Position numbers and translations under genes: made by a program
Part shown: piece after piece, positions 5,856-29,579 of the stretch
Layout: each line of letters starts with the position of its first letter
How positions within the stretch are numbered: position 1 is the stretch's first letter
NCBI RefSeq assembly: GCF_024494685.1
Contig: NZ_JANHDM010000018.1
Span: 1-51,799, forward strand
Direction: 5' to 3'
DNA from: Halorubrum rubrum
Lineage (GTDB): Archaea; Halobacteriota; Halobacteria; Halobacteriales; Haloferacaceae
DNA: 51,799 nt
Notes under the pieces: generated by a model
Told to the model about the DNA's origin: nothing
What the model saw: the letters and a program-made list of their open reading frames with translations, nothing else
Databases searched by the model: none

Positions 5856-5991
5856 GGAATGTCGACTCCCCGAACCACGTACACGGCGCTCGCCCCGGTC
5901 GCGAGCGGCGACGCCGTCGCGGACGACGGCGCGGCCCCGAACGGCGGGACCGAAAGTGGTTTGAAGGGAGCCGGATTACCCAGGAGTGCAC

Positions 5992-6075
5992 GCAGGGATA
6001 GCCAAGTCAGGCCAACGGCGCAGCGTTCAGGGCGCTGTCCTGTAGAGGTCCGCAGGTTCAAATCCTGCTCCCTGC
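5992..6075 (+). tRNA. tRNA-Leu (CAG)
   Basis: This 84-nt class II tRNA has acceptor pair GCAGGGA/TCCCTGC, anticodon stem CAGCG/CGCTG around loop TTCAGGG (anticodon CAG, reading CUG), a variable arm of the Leu type, and T arm GCAGGTTCAAATCCTGC. It sits between rpoD and rpl18e with no clear promoter of its own, so it is probably cut out of the polycistronic ribosomal transcript. Confidence 0.95.
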
Positions 6076-6114
6076 ACTCCGCTTTTCAGGAACCCCCCAC
6101 AGGGAGGGACAGCT

Positions 6115-6468
6115 ATGAGTAGCAAGACGAATCCGAACTTACAGAACCTCATCGCCGATCTGAAGTCGGTCTCGCGTGACTCCGGTGCCAACGTATGGCA
6201 GGACGTCGCCGACCGACTGGAGAAGCCACGGCGTACCCACGCCGAGGTCAATCTGGGTCGCATCGAACGGTACGCAAACGAAGACGAGACGGTCGTCGTT
6301 CCCGGCAAGGTGCTGGGCAGCGGCGTCTTAGAGAAGAGCGTCACCGTCGCCGCCGTCGACTTCTCGGGCACCGCCCGCACGAAGATCGACCAGGCCGGCG
6401 AGGCGGTGTCGCTCGACCAGTTCGTCGAGGACAACCCCGAGGGCGGCAACGTCCGGGTGATCCGATGA
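6115..6468 (+). CDS. rpl18e: 50S ribosomal protein L18e
   Basis: This 117-aa protein is archaeal L18e, a relative of bacterial L15 found only in archaea and eukaryotes. The sequence [20 protein letters not shown] at the start and [19 protein letters not shown] in the middle are family hallmarks. It opens the second ribosomal block, after tRNA-Leu, and its stop overlaps the rplM start (ATGA). Length is normal. The start ATG 6115 is the first in the frame and follows the tRNA by 39 bp. Confidence 0.95.
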
Positions 6469-6914
6469 GCCTCGCGAAGGTCGACGCCGACGTCGTCGTC
6501 GACGCCCGGGACTGTATCCTGGGTCGGGTCTCCTCGAAGGTCGCCCAGCGCGTCCTCGACGGGGAGACGGTGGCCGTGGTCAACGCCGAACACGCGGTGA
6601 TCACCGGCAACGAGGAGGCGACGATGGACACCTACCACACCCGCGCGAACCTCGGCTCGGACAGCGGGCCGTACTACCCCAAGCGTCCGGACCGCATCTT
6701 CAAGCGGGCCATTCGCGGCATGCTGCCGTACAAGAGCGAGGACGGCCGCGAGGCGCTCTCGAACGTCCGCGTCTACGTGGGCAACCCCTACGAGCGCGAC
6801 GAGGACGCCGAGGCGGTCGTCCTCGACGGCACGTCGCTGGACCGACTCTCGAACATCAAGTTCACCACGCTCGGGGACGTCTCCGAGTCCCTGGGAGCTA
6901 ACGTCACATGGTAA
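6465..6914 (+). CDS. rplM: 50S ribosomal protein L13
   Basis: This 149-aa protein is archaeal L13, which binds 23S rRNA early in large-subunit assembly. The start [20 protein letters not shown] and the block [18 protein letters not shown] are typical. ATG 6465 overlaps the L18e stop. The frame extends far upstream in the L18e gene, but the protein homology begins at MSLAKVD. Its end overlaps the rpsI start by 7 bp, so the block is tightly coupled. Confidence 0.95.
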
Positions 6915-7306
6915 CTAACACCTCGGGCAAGAAGAAGACGGCCGTCGCCCGCGCCACCGTGCGCGACGGCGAGGGCCGCGTTCGAATCAACTCCCAGCCG
7001 GTCGAGCTGGTCGAACCACAGCAGGCGCGTCTCAAGATGCTGGAACCGTTCCGCATCGCCGGCGAGGCGATCCGCGACGACGTCGACATCGACATCGACG
7101 TGACCGGCGGCGGGTTCAACGGCCAGGCGGACGCGACGCGGACCGCCATCGCCCGCGGGCTCGTTCAGCACCTCGGCGACGCCGAGCTGCGCGACGCGTA
7201 CATGAGCTTCGATCGCACGCTGCTGGTCAACGACGTTCGCCAGTCCGAACCCAAGAAGTGGGGCGGACCCGGCGCGCGTGCCCGCTACCAGAAGTCCTAC
7301 CGCTGA
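6908..7306 (+). CDS. rpsI: 30S ribosomal protein S9
   Basis: This 132-aa protein is archaeal S9, whose C-terminal tail reaches the P-site tRNA in the decoding centre. The early motif [20 protein letters not shown] and the end [13 protein letters not shown] with terminal Lys-Ser-Tyr-Arg are diagnostic. The internal [10 protein letters not shown] is the usual S9 helix. It overlaps rplM by 7 bp and precedes rpoN by 12 bp, in the conserved L13-S9-RpoN-RpoK order. Confidence 0.96.
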
Positions 7307-7318
7307 GGTGATCCAGTC

Positions 7319-7513
7319 ATGATGATCCCCGTCCGGTGTTTCACGTGCGGCAACGTCGTGGGTGAACACTGGGAGGAGTTCAAAGAGCGCGCTCGCGAGG
7401 GCGAGGAGGATCCCGGCGAGGTGCTCGACGACCTCGGCGTGAACCGACACTGCTGTCGGCGGATGCTGGTAAGCCACCGGGATCTCGTCGACGTCGTCTC
7501 GCCGTACCAGTAA
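7319..7513 (+). CDS. rpoN: DNA-directed RNA polymerase subunit N (Rpo10)
   Basis: This 64-aa protein is the homologue of eukaryotic Rpb10. It is a zinc protein that stabilises the D-L platform of RNA polymerase. The zinc ligands are Cys7 and Cys10 (RCFTCG) and the adjacent pair Cys45-Cys46 (NRHCCRRML), exactly the Rpb10 pattern. It ends 2 bp before rpoK. The size is standard for the family. Confidence 0.96.
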
Positions 7514-7515
7514 GA

Positions 7516-7698
7516 ATGTCAACACAGAGATACAATCGGTACGAGAAGGCGCGGATCCTCGGGGCGCGCGCCCTACAGGTGTCCTACGGGGCTCCCGTGC
7601 TGATCGAGACGAACCAGACGGAGCCGATCCTCGTCGCCGCCGAGGAGTACGACGCGGGCGCGCTTCCGTTCACGGTCCGGAGGGAGGCCGACGCGTGA
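7516..7698 (+). CDS. rpoK: DNA-directed RNA polymerase subunit K (Rpo6)
   Basis: This 60-aa protein is the archaeal relative of Rpb6 and bacterial omega. It clamps the largest polymerase subunit and helps assembly. The core is [19 protein letters not shown] followed by GAPVLIE and ending in LPFTVRRE. It is short compared with Rpb6, which is normal in archaea. Its stop overlaps the GTG start of eno by 4 bp (GTGA). Confidence 0.95.
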
Positions 7699-8897
7699 CC
7701 CGGATCACCAACGTGTCGCTGCGCCGTATCCTCGACTCGCGGGGGAACCCGACGGTCGAGGCGGACGTGCTCACCGAGTCCGGCGGCTTCGGTCGCGCGG
7801 CCGCGCCGAGCGGCGCGTCGACCGGCGAGTACGAGGCGATCGAGCTCCCCGCCGAGGAGTCGATCGCGAAGGCGAGAGAGCGCGCGGTTCCCCGGCTCGA
7901 GGGGCTCTTCGCCGGCGACCAGCGGTCGGTCGACGCCGCGTTGCGCGCGGCGGACGGCACCGACGACTTCTCCGCGATCGGCGCGAACAGCGCGGTCGCC
8001 ATCTCGATGGCGACCGCGAAGGCCGGCGCGGACGTGCTCGGCGCGCCGCTGTACCAGCATTTGGGCGGCGCGTTCCGCGGCGACAACTTCCCCGTGCCGC
8101 TCGGTAACGTCGTCGGCGGCGGCGAACACGCCAAGGAGGCGACCCACATCCAGGAGTTCCTCGCCGCGCCGGTCGGCGCGCCGAGCGTCTCCGAGGCCGT
8201 CTTCGCGAACGCCGCGGTCCACGCGGCGGTCGCGGACGTGCTCGACGAGCGCGGCGTGCCCGCGGCGAAGGGCGACGAGGGAGCGTGGGCCCCGCCGATC
8301 TCGGACGCGGAGGCGTTCGAGGTCGTCGCGGAGGCCGTCGAGACGGTCGAGGCGGAGGTCGGCTTCGAGATCCGCTTCGGGCTCGACATGGCCGCCGCGG
8401 AGTTGTACGACGACGAGGGCGACGCGTACGTCTACGGCGAGGAGACCAAGTCGACGGACGAGCAGATCGAGTACGTCGCCGGTCTCGTCGAGGAGTACGA
8501 CCTCGCGTACGTCGAGGACCCGCTCGACGAGAACGACTACGAGGCGTTCGCCGAGCTCACCGAACGCGTGGGCGACCGGACGCTGATCTGCGGCGACGAC
8601 CTGTTCGTCACCAACGTCGATCGGCTCCGCGAGGGGATCGACGTCGGCGCGGGAAACAGCATCCTGATCAAGCCGAACCAGATCGGGACGCTCTCGGACG
8701 CGTTCGACGCGGTCGAACTCGCGACCCGGAACGGGATGGAGAGCGTCATCTCCCACCGTTCGGGCGAGACGGAGGACACGACCATCGCACACCTCGCCGT
8801 GGCGACCGACGCCGCCTACATCAAGACGGGCACGGTCGGCGGCGAGCGAACCGCCAAGCTGAACGAACTGATCCGCATCGCGGACGACGCCGTATGA
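7695..8897 (+). CDS. eno: Enolase (phosphopyruvate hydratase)
   Basis: This 400-aa enzyme interconverts 2-phosphoglycerate and phosphoenolpyruvate in glycolysis and gluconeogenesis. Visible motifs are [13 protein letters not shown] at the N-terminus, the mobile active-site loop PSGASTGE (38-45), the metal ligands in [15 protein letters not shown] and CGDDLF, the catalytic lysine in LIKPNQIGT, and [10 protein letters not shown]. It starts with GTG 7695, overlapping rpoK, so a metabolic gene is embedded in the translation/transcription operon, as in other haloarchaea. The protein is slightly shorter than bacterial enolases, which is normal here. Confidence 0.96.
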
Positions 8898-22532: not shown

Positions 22533-22654
22533 CGTTCGGAGAGTCGCGGGTGGTCGGCATAGTTCTTCGGGGACGCGGCGCGCGTCGCGATCGGGCCGGG
22601 TCGCGACCGCCGACGACTCGAAAACCCCTAAGTCACGGCGACCCAACCTCGCGT

Positions 22655-24208
22655 ATGGTCGAAGCACCAGCGACGGAGGAAGGGTGGTTCGCGCTACACG
22701 AGTTCCGGTCGATCGACTGGGACGCGTGGCGTGACGCGCCCGACCGGAAGCGGGAGCGCGCCGTCGAGGAGGGTCAGTCGTACCTGCGCGACCGCGAGGA
22801 GCTCGCGACCGCCGACGCCGGGGACTCGGCGCTCTTCTCGGTGCTCGGACACAAGGCGGACCTGCTGACGATCCACTTCCGTCCGACGCTCGACGAGCTG
22901 TCGACGATCGAGCGCGGCTTCGAGAACACCGCGCTCGCCGAGTTCACGACCACCGAGTCGTCGTACGTCTCGGTCACGGAGGTGTCGGGATACGTCTCCG
23001 ACGCCTACTTCGAGGGTGACGAGGAGGAGGTCGACGAGGGGCTCCGTCGGTACATCGAGGGGAAGCTGAAACCGGAGATGCCGGACGACGAGTACGTCTC
23101 CTTCTACCCGATGAGCAAGCGTCGCGGCGAGGAGTACAACTGGTACGACCTCTCCTTCGAGGAGCGCGCGGAGCTGATGTCCGGCCACGGCGACACCGGC
23201 CGCGAGTACGCCGGGAGGATCGAGCAGGTGATCGCCTCCTCCGTCGGCCTCGACGACCACGAGTGGGGGGTGACCCTGTTCGGGTCGGATCCGACCGACA
23301 TCAAGGACATCGTCTACGAGATGCGCTTCGACGAGGCCTCCTCGCGGTACGGCGAGTTCGGCCGGTTCTACGTCGGCCGCCGGTTCCCGCCGCGCGACCT
23401 CGGCGCGTACCTCGCCGGCGAGGCGGTTCCGACCGGGAACACGGGCGGCGAGGGCGGCGACGCGCGGGGCCACCACGGCGGGGGCGACGCGCACGACCAC
23501 CACGGCGAGGGCGGGTCGGCTCACGGCGATCATCCGCACGGTGACGAGGACGCCGTCGGCGAGGGCGATCACCCCCACGGCGAGGACGACCGCGCCCACG
23601 GCGATGACGACGCCGAGGAGTCGGCCGACGGGATCCGCGGCGAGCTCGCCGACCTCGACATCTACGCCGGCAAACCCCAAGGCGAGGACGTGTTCGCGAC
23701 GGTGCTGTACAGCGAGGCCGACGTCGACGAGCTGTTCGGAGAGGTCGAAGGGCTCCGCGCCAACTTCGACCACTACGGCACCCACGTGAAGACCGCGGTC
23801 TACGAGGGACGCTCGACCGACCGCGCCGCCGTCGTCTCCCTCTGGGAGACCGCCTCGGCGGCCGAGACCGCCGCCGGGTTCCTCTCGGAGCTGCCCGAGG
23901 TCGTGGGGCGCGCCGGCGAGGAGTCTGGCTTCGGGACGATGGGGATGTTCTACACGGTCAAGCCCGAACACCGCGAGGACTTCGCCGACACGTTCGACGA
24001 CGTCGGCGAGGCGCTCGCCGGGATGGACGGCCACATCGAGACGGACCTGATGGTGAACGTCGAGGACGAGAACGACATGTTCATCGCCAGCCAGTGGCGC
24101 GCACAGGACGACGCGATGGCCTTCTTCCGCTCCGACGACTTCCGCGAGACCGTTCAGTGGGGCCGGGAGGTCCTCGCGGACCGGCCCCGACACGTCTTCT
24201 TAGCCTGA
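22655..24208 (+). CDS. pitA: PitA: chlorite dismutase/HemQ-like domain fused to monooxygenase-like domain
   Basis: This 517-aa protein has two domains. Residues 1-245 form a chlorite dismutase-like (HemQ) domain with SFYPMSKRR (Tyr151), EEYNWYDL and SGHGDTGREY, where His178 is in the usual heme-ligand position. Members of this family act as coproheme decarboxylases in heme b synthesis. A linker (about 250-310) is Gly/Asp-rich with 11 histidines between 263 and 305. The C-terminal domain (about 325-517) is antibiotic-biosynthesis-monooxygenase-like. This architecture is known from haloarchaeal PitA. The start ATG 22655 is the first that keeps the family N-terminus. The exact reaction in haloarchaea is not settled. 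Confidence 0.92.
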   Translation: MVEAPATEEGWFALHEFRSIDWDAWRDAPDRKRERAVEEGQSYLRDREELATADAGDSALFSVLGHKADLLTIHFRPTLDELSTIERGFENTALAEFTTTESSYVSVTEVSGYVSDAYFEGDEEEVDEGLRRYIEGKLKPEMPDDEYVSFYPMSKRRGEEYNWYDLSFEERAELMSGHGDTGREYAGRIEQVIASSVGLDDHEWGVTLFGSDPTDIKDIVYEMRFDEASSRYGEFGRFYVGRRFPPRDLGAYLAGEAVPTGNTGGEGGDARGHHGGGDAHDHHGEGGSAHGDHPHGDEDAVGEGDHPHGEDDRAHGDDDAEESADGIRGELADLDIYAGKPQGEDVFATVLYSEADVDELFGEVEGLRANFDHYGTHVKTAVYEGRSTDRAAVVSLWETASAAETAAGFLSELPEVVGRAGEESGFGTMGMFYTVKPEHREDFADTFDDVGEALAGMDGHIETDLMVNVEDENDMFIASQWRAQDDAMAFFRSDDFRETVQWGREVLADRPRHVFLA

Positions 24209-25728: not shown

Positions 25729-25839
25729 GGCCGTGGAGACGGCGAGGGGGACCAAAAGGCTCGGCACCGCGGCCCCGACTACCGGGACCGGCGGATCGCC
25801 CGCGGTCGGCCGGTTCCTCCCTTCAGAGAAGAATTCACG

Positions 25840-25912
25840 CGTTCAAATTTTAATTGTCTACCTAAATCATAGAAAAGTATATAGTAAAACACCCACATTG
25901 GGTACTGGTACC
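25840..25912 (+). promoter_or_regulatory. AT-rich promoter of the DUF2589 operon
   Basis: This stretch has a much lower GC content than its surroundings. The element tatatag (25879-25885), inside agaaaagtatatagtaaaac, lies 28-34 nt before ATG 25913 and is a strong TATA box. Upstream, caaattttaattg (25844-25856) is a near-palindrome. The sequence ggtactggtacc (25901-25912) touches the start codon and is palindromic at 10 of 12 positions, a possible operator or ribosome-start structure. Confidence 0.6.
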
Positions 25913-26521
25913 ATGCCTAGTCCGAACTTTCCGGCGGAGCTCGCATCGATCCCGTACGAAGAGGTCATCGGAACGCCGTTGCGCGCCGCCGTCGAGGCGA
26001 ACGCGAGCGCGTCGATGACGGCGGCGGAGTTCATCAAGACGGTCGGATTCACCGAACCGATCGTCGGGGAGGCGGAGCCCGTGACGGTCGATTTCGCCTA
26101 CAAGCGCCGCGAGATCGACCCGGACACCGGGGGCGAGACGGTCGAGAGCCACACGATGACGGTGCCGCTGCTGTTGTTGATCCACGTCCCCTACTTCGAG
26201 GTGGAGACGGTCACGATCGACTTCAACGTGAAGCTTAATTCGGTGGAGGCGTTCTCGCGCTCGACCGAGTTCGAGTTCGGCGTCGACAACGAGACGGAAG
26301 GCGGGTTCGATCTGGGGTTCATCGACGGGAAGACGAAGACGTCGGTCAACATGAGCTACCAGTCGTCGACCCGGCGGGGACGGGAGATCGAGCGGACCTA
26401 CGACCAGCGCGTCCACGTCGAGGCAGGATCGATCGATCCGCCGGAGGGTGTCTCGAAGCTGTTCTCCGCGCTGGAGACGACGATCACTGACGTGACGGAC
26501 GACGACGGCGAAGTGGAGTGA
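25913..26521 (+). CDS. DUF2589-family protein 1
   Basis: This 202-aa protein matches the DUF2589 pattern as I know it. An N-terminal amphipathic helix PLRAAVEANASASMTAAEFI (22-41) leads into KTVGF. It is followed by beta-rich segments with VPLLLLIHVPYFEVETVTID (84-103) and FNVKL, and a C-terminal VHVEAGSIDPPEGVSKLFSA (167-186). No signal peptide, transmembrane helix or catalytic motif is visible. It leads the operon, 6 bp ahead of the second paralogue, behind a strong promoter. DUF2589 proteins have no established role that I can cite. The repeated hydrophobic strand and helix pattern suggests self-assembly into a larger particle or layer, which is only inference. Confidence 0.8.
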   Translation: MPSPNFPAELASIPYEEVIGTPLRAAVEANASASMTAAEFIKTVGFTEPIVGEAEPVTVDFAYKRREIDPDTGGETVESHTMTVPLLLLIHVPYFEVETVTIDFNVKLNSVEAFSRSTEFEFGVDNETEGGFDLGFIDGKTKTSVNMSYQSSTRRGREIERTYDQRVHVEAGSIDPPEGVSKLFSALETTITDVTDDDGEVE

Positions 26522-26527
26522 CCCGGC

Positions 26528-27214
26528 GTGAGCCAGACCGACACGCTCGCCGACCTCCCGCTCGCGACGCTGTTCTCCGCGCCGCTGATCGCGGCGATAG
26601 ACGCCAGCGCGCAGGCGCAGACCGAGACGATCGACCTCCTCCGGGAGGTCGGGTTCGAGTCGGACGGGACCCCCGCGACGGTGTCGTTCGAGTACGCGAC
26701 GACGGACGTCGAACCCGCGACCGGCGAGCGACGACGGCGGCCGAAGACGCTCGAGGTCCCGCTGTTGTTGTTCCTCTCGGTCCCCGAACTCGTCGTCCAC
26801 GAGATCGAACAGACGTTCTCCGCGCGGATCGTCGACGTCGAGGACGTCGAACGCGAGGGCGACGGCGGGGGCGGAACCGCCGGTCGCACGAAGTCGCCGT
26901 CGCTCCGCCCGCAACGACTCCGCGTCGCGCCCGCCAAGCAGTCGGAGACGTTCGCCCGGCGGACCAAGACGACCTTCGACCTCGACGTCACCATGCGTGC
27001 CGAGGTGGAGAACCGGTCGACCGGGATAGACCTGCTCGAGCGATCGCTGATGACGACCGTCGTCGACGGCGACTCGGAGGCGGCGGGATCGACGCCGGCG
27101 GGGCGGGAGAAAGCGAAGCGCGAAGCGGCGAAACGAGAGAAAGCGAAGCGCGAGAGAGCGGAGGAGGACCCGCAGAGAACCGAAGATCGGACGACCGAGG
27201 GGGACGGCGAATGA
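26528..27214 (+). CDS. DUF2589-like protein 2 with Lys/Glu-rich tail
   Basis: This 228-aa protein is a diverged paralogue of the previous gene. It has the same helix (PLIAAIDASAQAQTETIDLL, 19-38), the same VPLLLFLSVPELVVHEIEQT block (77-96), and C-terminal strand pairs. The central part (105-150) is a Gly-rich, basic insertion, and residues 194-228 form a charged tail (REKAKREAAKREKAKRERAE) likely to be helical. It starts at GTG 26528, 6 bp after gene 1, and overlaps gene 3 by ATGA. Paired DUF2589 paralogues suggest a hetero-oligomer. The charged tail could contact the Arg/Glu-rich helix of protein 3. Confidence 0.72.
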   Translation: MSQTDTLADLPLATLFSAPLIAAIDASAQAQTETIDLLREVGFESDGTPATVSFEYATTDVEPATGERRRRPKTLEVPLLLFLSVPELVVHEIEQTFSARIVDVEDVEREGDGGGGTAGRTKSPSLRPQRLRVAPAKQSETFARRTKTTFDLDVTMRAEVENRSTGIDLLERSLMTTVVDGDSEAAGSTPAGREKAKREAAKREKAKRERAEEDPQRTEDRTTEGDGE

Positions 27215-28020
27215 CGGAGCTCAGGCACTTCCTCACGTCACTTTTCGACGCCGTCTCCGAGGCGGAGCTACAGGCGCTGTCGAACGGGCGAACGCGGCTC
27301 GAACGGATGGTCGAGTCCGGCCGGTTTCCGGAGGACGTGAGCCTGCCCGTCTACCACGCGAACGACCTCTCGGTGTCGCTCGACGTCGGACTCGAGGCCA
27401 AACGGACGAAACGCGGGATCCAGCTGTTCGTCACGGAACCCGGCGAGGGCGACGACACCGCCCTCGAGTTCGACCTCGAGGTGTACGACTTCCTCGAGGC
27501 GGGCGACCTCCCGGACGGTGGCGTCGGGCGGGGGAACCCGGACCACGGGGCGGTCGACGTCCACGTGCCGCTGGAGGATCCCCCGGCGGGAGCCGGCCGC
27601 GAGGGCGATCCGGACGACGCCGGGACGAGCGGAGAACGGGTCGATCCGAAGGAGGAGTACTATCGCGAACGGGAGCGCGAGGAGCGGAAACGGGAGGAAC
27701 GCGAGGAACGTGACCGGCGCGAGAAACGCGAGGAACGTGACCGGCGCGAGGAACGCGAGAAGCGAGAGAACGAGCGGAGCGGCGCGAACGACGAGCGAAC
27801 CGATGACGACACAGAAACGGACCGACGGCGACCGGATCGATCGGCGAACGACGAGAAACGGGCAGAGCCCGCCCGGAGGGAACGGAGACCCGCCGATCGA
27901 GAGGGGTCCGGTTCGAGCCGGCCGTTCCTCGGAGTCGACCTCCCGGAGGGCTGGCCGCTCCGGCGGACGGGAACGCTCGACGCGACGGGCGAGGACGAAC
28001 CGTCGGGGGAGAAGCGATGA
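27211..28020 (+). CDS. Protein with long Arg/Glu-rich helix (DUF2589 operon, gene 3)
   Basis: This 269-aa protein has three parts. Residues 1-98 look globular, with a helix (TELRHFLTSLFDAVSEAELQ) and strands (LPVYHANDLSVSLDVGLEAK) reminiscent of the DUF2589 strand block, though I cannot call it a member. Residues 147-190 are a highly charged Arg/Glu run built from a 9-residue repeat, expected to form a single straight helix. Residues 190-269 are acidic-basic and low in complexity, ending in FLGVDLPEGWPL and a charged tail. The start overlaps gene 2 and the end overlaps gene 4 by ATGA. A scaffold or spacer role is inferred. Confidence 0.65.
   Translation: MTELRHFLTSLFDAVSEAELQALSNGRTRLERMVESGRFPEDVSLPVYHANDLSVSLDVGLEAKRTKRGIQLFVTEPGEGDDTALEFDLEVYDFLEAGDLPDGGVGRGNPDHGAVDVHVPLEDPPAGAGREGDPDDAGTSGERVDPKEEYYREREREERKREEREERDRREKREERDRREEREKRENERSGANDERTDDDTETDRRRPDRSANDEKRAEPARRERRPADREGSGSSRPFLGVDLPEGWPLRRTGTLDATGEDEPSGEKR
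27700..27753 (+). repeat. Two tandem copies of a 27-bp coding repeat
   Basis: Two almost identical 27-nt units (27700-27726 and 27727-27753, one base different) encode REERDRREK and REERDRREE inside gene 3 of the DUF2589 operon. A degraded third unit follows. The number of units could vary between strains by slippage. Confidence 0.8.
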
Positions 28021-28349
28021 GTGACGACGACGGCGTTCGACGCTACTTCGAGCCGCTGACGACCGACCAGCGCGAGTCGCTCCGGGCGCGCATGGAGCGG
28101 TATCGCGACGGACTGGAGGGCAACGGGTACGAACTCGCGCTCGCCGAGGGAGTCGGCGGGCTCTTCGCCGGCGTCCTCGTGATCGACGACGAGCGGGGTC
28201 GCGCCGGGTTCCTCGAGACCAACGGCGCGGTCACCTGGCTCGACGGGTCGACCGGCGGGCTCGGCGCGCTCGGGTCGGCGATCGCACAGAACCACACCGA
28301 CGCGCTCGACGCGGCGGTCGACGTCCCCGAGGGCGTCGACATCGAGTAG
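28017..28349 (+). CDS. Small acidic protein (DUF2589 operon, gene 4)
   Basis: This 110-aa protein begins at ATG 28017, overlapping gene 3. It starts with an acidic Asp-run and a helix (LTTDQRESLRARMERYRDGL), then a Gly-rich hydrophobic segment (EGVGGLFAGVLVID) and VTWLDGSTGGLGALGSAIAQ. There is no transmembrane segment that is clearly long enough and no cysteine. I do not recognise a family. As last gene in the four-gene operon it may be an assembly or regulatory partner of the DUF2589 proteins. It is convergent with metB, 39 bp away. Confidence 0.7.
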   Translation: MSDDDGVRRYFEPLTTDQRESLRARMERYRDGLEGNGYELALAEGVGGLFAGVLVIDDERGRAGFLETNGAVTWLDGSTGGLGALGSAIAQNHTDALDAAVDVPEGVDIE

Positions 28350-28388
28350 CGTCCCGCCGGGACCGGGCGCGGCCGAACGACCGCTCGT

Positions 28389-29579
28389 TCACTCGAGGGC
28401 GGCGTCGAACGCCCGCTGGAGGTCCGCCTTCATGTCGTCGACGTGCTCGATGCCGACCGAGACGCGGATCAGGCCGTCGGTGAGCCCGGCGGCGAGGCGC
28501 TCCTCGCGGGGGATCGCGGCGTGAGTCATCGCGGCCGGCTGCTCGATGAGGCTCTCGACGCCGCCGAGCGACTCCGCGAGCGTGAACACCGCCGTCTCCT
28601 CCACGACCGTCGAGGCCTGCTCGAGGCTGCCGTCGAACTCGAAGGAGAGCATCCCGCCGAAGTCGTCCATCTGTTCGGCGGCGAGCTCGTGGTGCGGGTG
28701 CGACTCTAAGCCGGGGTAGTAGACCCGGCTCACGTCGTCGTGGTCCTGGAGCCACTCGGCGAGTTCGGCGGCGTTCTCGCAGTGGCGGTCCATCCGCACC
28801 GGGAGGGTCTTCGTGCCCCGAAGGACGAGGAAGGCGTCGAACGGGCCGGGCGTCGCGCCCACCGAGTTCTGGTAGAACCCGATCTCCTCGTCGAGGTCGG
28901 CGTCGTCGACGATCAGCGCCCCGCCGATCGTGTCGGAGTGGCCGCCGAGGTACTTCGTGAGCGACTGACAGACGACGTCCGCGCCGTCCTCGAGCGGCCG
29001 CTGGAGGTACGGCGTCGCGAAGGTGTTGTCGACGGCACACAGCGCGTCGCCCTCGTGGGCGATGTCGGCGAGCGCGCCGACGTCGTTCACGTTCATCAGC
29101 GGGTTCGTGGGCGTCTCGACCCAGACCAGCTCCGTGTTCGGCTCCATCGCCTCGCGGACCGCGTCGTGGTCGGTGGTGTCGACGAACGTGGTCTCGAGGT
29201 CGTACTGGTCGTACACCTGCGTGAGGATCCGGTGGGTGCCGCCGTAGACGTCGTCGCCGGCGACGACGTGATCGCCCGCGGAGAGCAGGTTGAGGACGGT
29301 GTTTATCGCGCCCATCCCCGAGGAGAAACAGCGGGCGTGGCTGCCCGACTCCAACGCCGCGAGGTTCTCCTCGAGGTCGGTTCGCGTCGGGTTCCCGGTC
29401 CGGGAGTACTCGTAGCCGCGGTGGTCGCCGGGGCCGTCCTGTTTATACGTCGAGTTGGCGTGGATCGGCGTCATCAGCGCGCCCGTCTCCGGGTCCGGCT
29501 CCTGGCCGGCGTGGATCGCCCGCGTCTCGAAGTGGAACTCGTCAGCGTCGCCGTCGCCCGCTGGATCGTGGTCGCTCAT
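28389..29579 (-). CDS. metB: Cystathionine gamma-synthase / trans-sulfuration PLP enzyme
   Basis: This 396-aa PLP enzyme of the Cys/Met family makes or cleaves cystathionine or adds sulfide to homoserine esters. Motifs include FETRAIHAGQEPDPETGALM at the N-terminus, EYSRTGNPTR, FSSGMGAINT, and the PLP lysine in SLTKYLGGHSD. SLGGVESLIEQPAAMTHAAI near the C-terminus is the typical substrate-binding stretch. Synthase and lyase cannot be separated by sequence alone, so metB is the best but not the only symbol. The start is ATG 29579. An ATG three codons upstream is possible. Confidence 0.88.
   Translation of the reverse strand: MSDHDPAGDGDADEFHFETRAIHAGQEPDPETGALMTPIHANSTYKQDGPGDHRGYEYSRTGNPTRTDLEENLAALESGSHARCFSSGMGAINTVLNLLSAGDHVVAGDDVYGGTHRILTQVYDQYDLETTFVDTTDHDAVREAMEPNTELVWVETPTNPLMNVNDVGALADIAHEGDALCAVDNTFATPYLQRPLEDGADVVCQSLTKYLGGHSDTIGGALIVDDADLDEEIGFYQNSVGATPGPFDAFLVLRGTKTLPVRMDRHCENAAELAEWLQDHDDVSRVYYPGLESHPHHELAAEQMDDFGGMLSFEFDGSLEQASTVVEETAVFTLAESLGGVESLIEQPAAMTHAAIPREERLAAGLTDGLIRVSVGIEHVDDMKADLQRAFDAALE

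Follow-up and report, generated by a model that had tools for sequence, protein, structure and literature searches.

Do the four small genes on the forward strand of this Halorubrum rubrum contig belong together, and what could their products do? The first-pass annotation of the window, by which we mean the whole stretch of 51,799 nucleotides that was analysed, had described an overlapping operon behind a strong AT-rich promoter. The four open reading frames are present and run in the same direction: P1 (25913..26521, 202 aa), P2 (26528..27214, 228 aa, with a GTG start), P3 (27211..28020, 269 aa), and P4 (28017..28349, 110 aa). The overlaps exist between P2 and P3 (ATGA at 27211) and between P3 and P4 (ATGA at 28017), but P1 and P2 are separated by a 6-bp gap. 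The promoter (25840..25912, forward strand), the strongest AT-rich one in the window, was borne out: the 73 bp before P1 has 33% GC versus 70% for the window, and only 0.07% of the window's 73-bp stretches are as GC poor. A TATA-like element, GTATATAG, precedes the P1 ATG by about 35 nt, and the orthologues carry a TATA-like element at similar spacing. The neighbours in the window are a UspA-like gene and genes for a 2-hydroxyacid dehydrogenase, a Cys/Met PLP enzyme, and PhoU. At 22550 to 24208 (+), the window also encodes a fusion of a chlorite dismutase/HemQ domain with an ABM monooxygenase domain; the long linker between the two is rich in His, Asp, and Gly (HHGGGDAHDHHGEGGSAHGDHPHGDEDAV...) and may bind metal.

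A failure of the four genes to co-occur had been named in advance as the observation that would count against the proposal. When this was examined, co-occurrence in haloarchaea turned out to be strict and the order fixed. Of 145 haloarchaeal genomes sampled, 9 have DUF2589, the family to which P1 and P2 belong; these 9 are distributed over three genera, and the DUF2589 genes form an adjacent pair every time. A profile of the P3 N-terminal domain matched exactly the 9 DUF2589-bearing haloarchaea among 141, and a P4 profile matched the same 9 plus, weakly, one regulator-like protein of genome G068. Thus, P3 was present in none and P4 in one of the 132 genomes lacking DUF2589, and both were present in all 9 that have it (Fisher p of 2e-13 for P4 and DUF2589, kinship not being corrected for). 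The order P1-P2-P3-P4 is constant in all DUF2589-bearing haloarchaeal loci examined. The flanks of the cassette differ between genera, and therefore the block stands alone.

Comparison within Halorubrum showed how the block comes and goes. The cassette occurs in 9 of 52 genomes, in eight of them at one site, between the 2-hydroxyacid dehydrogenase and Cys/Met PLP-enzyme genes; the ninth strain, G482, carries all four genes elsewhere. In G465, G008, and G457 this site is empty and the flanking genes are adjacent, with about 70 to 152 bp between the matched stretches. G465 and G008 align with the window up to about 25791 to 25802 and resume from 28381 to 28389, leaving 30 to 110 bp in between, and such empty sites of relatives place the cassette at 25791..28388 (+). 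In G490 and G006 the same site holds an unrelated gene, apparently for a transporter; at loci L089 and L092 of other Halorubrum, the unrelated gene at this site has about 626 to 647 aa and is apparently an ion antiporter. Three allele types can be distinguished, namely, A (G000, G015, and G108), B (G009, G464, G097, and G476), and C (G461). The flanking proteins of G009 are 94 to 97% identical to those of the window, whereas its P1 to P4 are just 58 to 69% identical; those P1 to P4 are 85 to 94% identical to the proteins of G097, whose own flanks are only 74 to 88% identical to the window. G464 shows the same pattern of close flanks and a different P1-P4 allele. Because the flanks of G009 and G464 resemble the window but their P1 to P4 resemble G097, all four genes moved together. 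The type B loci are also alike in sequence upstream of the cassette. Strains exchange the cassette as one block, and the view that the four genes form one genetic unit is supported by their co-occurrence, fixed order, joint gain and loss, and joint allele exchange. The ratios of dN to dS for close relatives show purifying selection on all four genes, with P1 (0.13 to 0.14) and the P3 N-domain (0.17 to 0.18) the most constrained, followed by P4 (0.23 to 0.24) and P2 (0.37 to 0.38); the relaxed P3 tail gave 0.44 to 0.57.

This behaviour raises the chief rival to the reading that we develop below, i.e., that the cassette is a conflict module directed against viruses, plasmids, or competing strains, with alleles that differ in specificity. 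Patchy presence (those 9 of 52 Halorubrum genomes) with clean empty sites is what immunity or antagonism loci display, and the swapping of whole cassettes between flanking proteins that are 85 to 97% identical and the three allele types at a single locus fit as well. On the other hand, P1 to P4 had no match in PADLOC-DB 2.0 at E values up to 0.1, nuclease, toxin, and ATPase genes are absent, the operon lies outside any defence island here, and the DUF2589 trio recurs in most sampled genomes of the Archaeoglobi-type family f14 among those listed. We consider the conflict module possible but doubtful. The fuller proposition, that three paralogous DUF2589-type subunits found in archaea and bacteria serve in haloarchaea as allelic cassettes for strain- or virus-level conflict, is unlikely. 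An origin of the cassette from a phage or a plasmid was considered separately and rejected. P1 had no match among viral contigs, P1 to P3 had no phage family match in PHROGs at E values up to 0.1, and the sole match in a phage collection was an unannotated 4-kb faecal scaffold with a bacterial-type operon; the plasmid matches were distant and bacterial, and P4 had none.

P1 and P2 had been taken for DUF2589 paralogues, and this proved correct. Both score above the curated cut-off of 23 bits for PF11655, P1 with 90.6 bits (1.8e-25) over positions 2 to 153 of 154 and the more divergent P2, which has a charged tail, with 43.2 bits (6.7e-11) over positions 1 to 138, and they match each other in HHalign (1.9e-30 across 176 columns). 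They share the PLxAAxxAxA block (PLRAAVEANA in P1 and PLIAAIDASA in P2) and the VPLLL block (VPLLLL and VPLLLF) that had been noticed in the sequence. Both are clear members of a family without known function, whose deep tree has long branches and a base that does not resolve. The named sequences nearest P1 are from Halorubrum sp. 48-1-W and Hrr. cibi (91 to 93% identity). A weak match of P1 to Adeno_PIX (hexon-interlacing) is confined to the Ala-rich helix, and we treated it as an effect of composition. The AlphaFold2 model of P1, which is of low confidence (pLDDT 66, pTM 0.43), has a helix at residues 15 to 45, six strands in a beta-meander, and a C-terminal helix. It found no clear fold match in the PDB and none with an E value under 0.001 in a viral structure library.

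The weak Foldseek matches of this model recur among SecB, the SecB-like Rv1957, and DUF1149-type structures (2o2a and 2hng), with probabilities of 0.5 to 0.84, E values of 0.02 to 0.1, and a VIA Z of about 4.1 across P1 residues 94 to 177. The likeness to the SecB fold (PF02556, DUF1149), itself weak and drawn from a low-confidence model, lies in four long antiparallel strands, and the genome has no PF02556 SecB match of its own. The proteins could on these grounds form a holdase chaperone like SecB, made up of two or three kinds of subunit. For a model with a pLDDT of 66, however, these E values, the TM of 0.22, and the Z are in the noise range; PF02556 did not appear among the Pfam matches, nor a SecB chain in the PDB sequence search (both at E values up to 1). 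P1 further differs from SecB in having no sequence similarity to it, an extra N-terminal helix and hairpin, and a paralogous second subunit. We regard a holdase of this type as very unlikely.

The third protein was the one for which the first-pass annotation had to be revised. The 44-residue run rich in Arg and Glu exists (P3 residues 146 to 189, 27646..27777 on the forward strand, 77% R+E), and its composition fits an ER/K single alpha-helix, but it is not conserved. It sits on a tandem repeat in the DNA (27694 to 27759, 27-bp/9-bp, the 27-bp unit with a 94% match), and the R+E fraction of the best 44-residue P3 window falls from 0.77 here to 0.45 in G108 and 0.39 in G482. The P3 proteins of two other genera (g35 and g54) have no such run; HHH_5 domains that pass the Pfam cut-off are present in the g35 tails, and the tail in g54 gives HHH profile matches just under it. 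A charged straight helix as the defining structural part is thus rejected. Because the run is repeat encoded, variable, and absent in g35 and g54, the tail is a variable module and not a subunit.

The conserved part of P3 spans approximately the first 107 residues, in which a helix precedes 'SLPVYHANDLSVSLDVGLEA'. An equivalent third gene with the same helix/strand layout lies beside DUF2589 in Archaeoglobi-type genomes ('LPLTTFDVSEIEVELRFAV'), in families f21, f26, and f37 ('MPVPHFRLPDVEVDVPVVI'), and in gut bacteria ('FALPTVAVGEVELDLRYGV'). In profile comparisons, the Archaeoglobi group matched f21/26/37 with 4.6e-7 and the bacteria with 5e-4, f21/26/37 matched the bacteria with 2.2e-4 and the haloarchaeal P3 with 0.0054, and f21/26/37 P3 matched P1 with 6.2e-5 on the same strand motif. 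All of these links, those to haloarchaeal P3 and to P1 included, exceeded the whole set of 150 column shuffles. The P3 N-domain has no Pfam match to DUF2589, and the direct comparison of haloarchaeal P3 with P1 was at noise, 18 of the 150 shuffles being equally high; the link is therefore indirect. Taken at moderate confidence, P3 is probably a mini-DUF2589, a minimal relative of P1 and P2.

P4 is the small acidic protein that had been announced as the fourth gene product. It has 36 invariant columns across three genera and no known family, as no match above the cut-off was found in Pfam, NCBIfam, PHROG, or PADLOC; the best PHROG match was 0.021 over 21 residues. The weak match in G068 mentioned above (E value of 1.7e-4 over 64 residues) is at most a tentative link of P4 to a haloarchaeal wHTH-like regulator. 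Fold searches with the low-confidence P4 model (pLDDT 60) gave no confident match among PDB or viral structures.

Relatives of the unit extend well beyond the haloarchaea. DUF2589 was present in 25 of 393 genomes of the phylum, and adjacent DUF2589 gene pairs are usual in Archaeoglobi and bacteria, as they are in haloarchaea. Family f14, which we read as Archaeoglobi, has P1-P2-P3 in that order on one strand (loci L059 to L065), as in haloarchaea. In other archaeal families a single DUF2589 gene is accompanied by a P3-like gene and, in two of the three, also by a gene of 190 aa; two gut-type bacterial contigs have the trio in the order P1-P3-P2. The bacterial loci come from Vibrio, delta-proteobacterium, Burkholderia, and Streptomyces plasmid records, from a gut scaffold, and from three IMG/VR contigs. 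The core of three proteins, laid out alike, recurs in other archaea and in bacteria. Compared with the family at large, the haloarchaeal version adds P4 and has a P3 with variable C-terminal modules. In Archaeoglobus fulgidus, the DUF2589 region AF0414-AF0417 is co-regulated and upregulated with lactate (PMC3949148). That region would be a P1-P2-P3 trio like the Archaeoglobi loci read here and without P4; it probably corresponds to the trio of G244, whose split P2 would give four tags. In that genome an apparent frameshift splits P2 into two open reading frames (L064, 9023 to 9414, reverse complement of the locus).

Several of these loci have features of their own. Two archaea encode short signal-peptide proteins (L072, about 8130 to 8300, and L073, 8163 to 8489, both on the minus strand) that end in the motif GLPMxDLIxGPLSAxVRAQ of the DUF2589 N-terminal helix and share only this motif with the family. 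In an IMG/VR contig (L083, 2956 to 3435), the second DUF2589 gene is shortened to 160 aa, with its C-terminal part missing, and lies shortly before a tyrosine-integrase-like gene; the insertion site of an element may therefore lie at or within the DUF2589 operon of a Bacteroidetes-like host. Locus L100 has genes for an M15 peptidase, a patatin-like phospholipase, and DUF2589 proteins in a row (5914 to 8591); they lie on the margin of a prophage of Bacteroidetes type that has sheath-like and tube-like genes. Near the DUF2589 pair of a Vibrio plasmid is a gene with the annotation TcdA/TcdB-type glycosyltransferase-domain protein (L053, 397 to 1920, minus strand).

The bacterial neighbourhoods could also mean that the proteins are components of an envelope or particle, released from or spanning the envelope and working with a wall hydrolase in peptidoglycan-bearing hosts. 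A same-strand peptidoglycan hydrolase lies close to several bacterial DUF2589 loci (muramidase PF11860 in L074 and L049, a phage lysozyme gene that overlaps the second DUF2589 gene in L051, and the M15 peptidase in L100), and the short signal-peptide proteins of the two archaea point the same way. Yet the hydrolases amount to four loci in a small and biased bacterial sample, one of them the prophage edge, and the Vibrio loci have no adjacent same-strand hydrolase. No signal peptide is evident in the full-length proteins, the P1/P2 helix is Ala rich with a low moment (0.16 to 0.34), and haloarchaea have no peptidoglycan. An envelope role is decidedly unlikely.

We tentatively favour, at a little less than even confidence, a cytoplasmic hetero-oligomer of related P1, P2, and P3-N subunits with P4 as a partner, which would act as a binding scaffold with exchangeable tails as tethers. 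No enzyme signature was found in P1 to P4, in line with the earlier expectation of structural parts. P1, P2, and the P3 N-domain would be related helix-plus-beta-sheet subunits of one complex, and P4 would be its haloarchaea-specific partner or accessory subunit. The conserved order, the co-occurrence, the joint allele exchange, the recurrence of the trio in Archaeoglobi and gut-type bacterial contigs, the profile links of the P3 groups to one another and to P1, and the joint regulation of AF0414-AF0417 argue for such a hetero-oligomer; the shuffle-level match of haloarchaeal P3 to P1 and a low-confidence P1 model without a clear fold argue against it. Prefoldin, in which paralogous helix-plus-hairpin subunits assemble into a hetero-oligomer, offers a comparison for how the proposed complex might work, and for that only: the cassette proteins have no sequence match to it and a much shorter helix, and they are not members. 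The complex would probably be a binding scaffold, and the tails of P2 and P3, whether charged, acidic, or HHH, may be exchangeable tethers to whatever is bound. HHH domains usually bind nucleic acid. The complex is best read as dispensable and kept as an exchangeable block.

The suspicion that the system was undescribed agrees with the open literature searched, where DUF2589 was named once, for A. fulgidus AF0414-AF0417 (PMC3949148). Although the domain is known, the sources searched contain no description of the four-gene unit, its third subunit, P4 as a partner, or the exchange of the cassette. A family of archaea and bacteria without known function thereby gains a defined unit of two full paralogues and a shorter third protein that Pfam does not recognise, to which haloarchaea add P4. 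With alleles that are exchanged jointly and Halorubrum strains whose sites are naturally empty, the function can be tested by strain comparison and gene swap.
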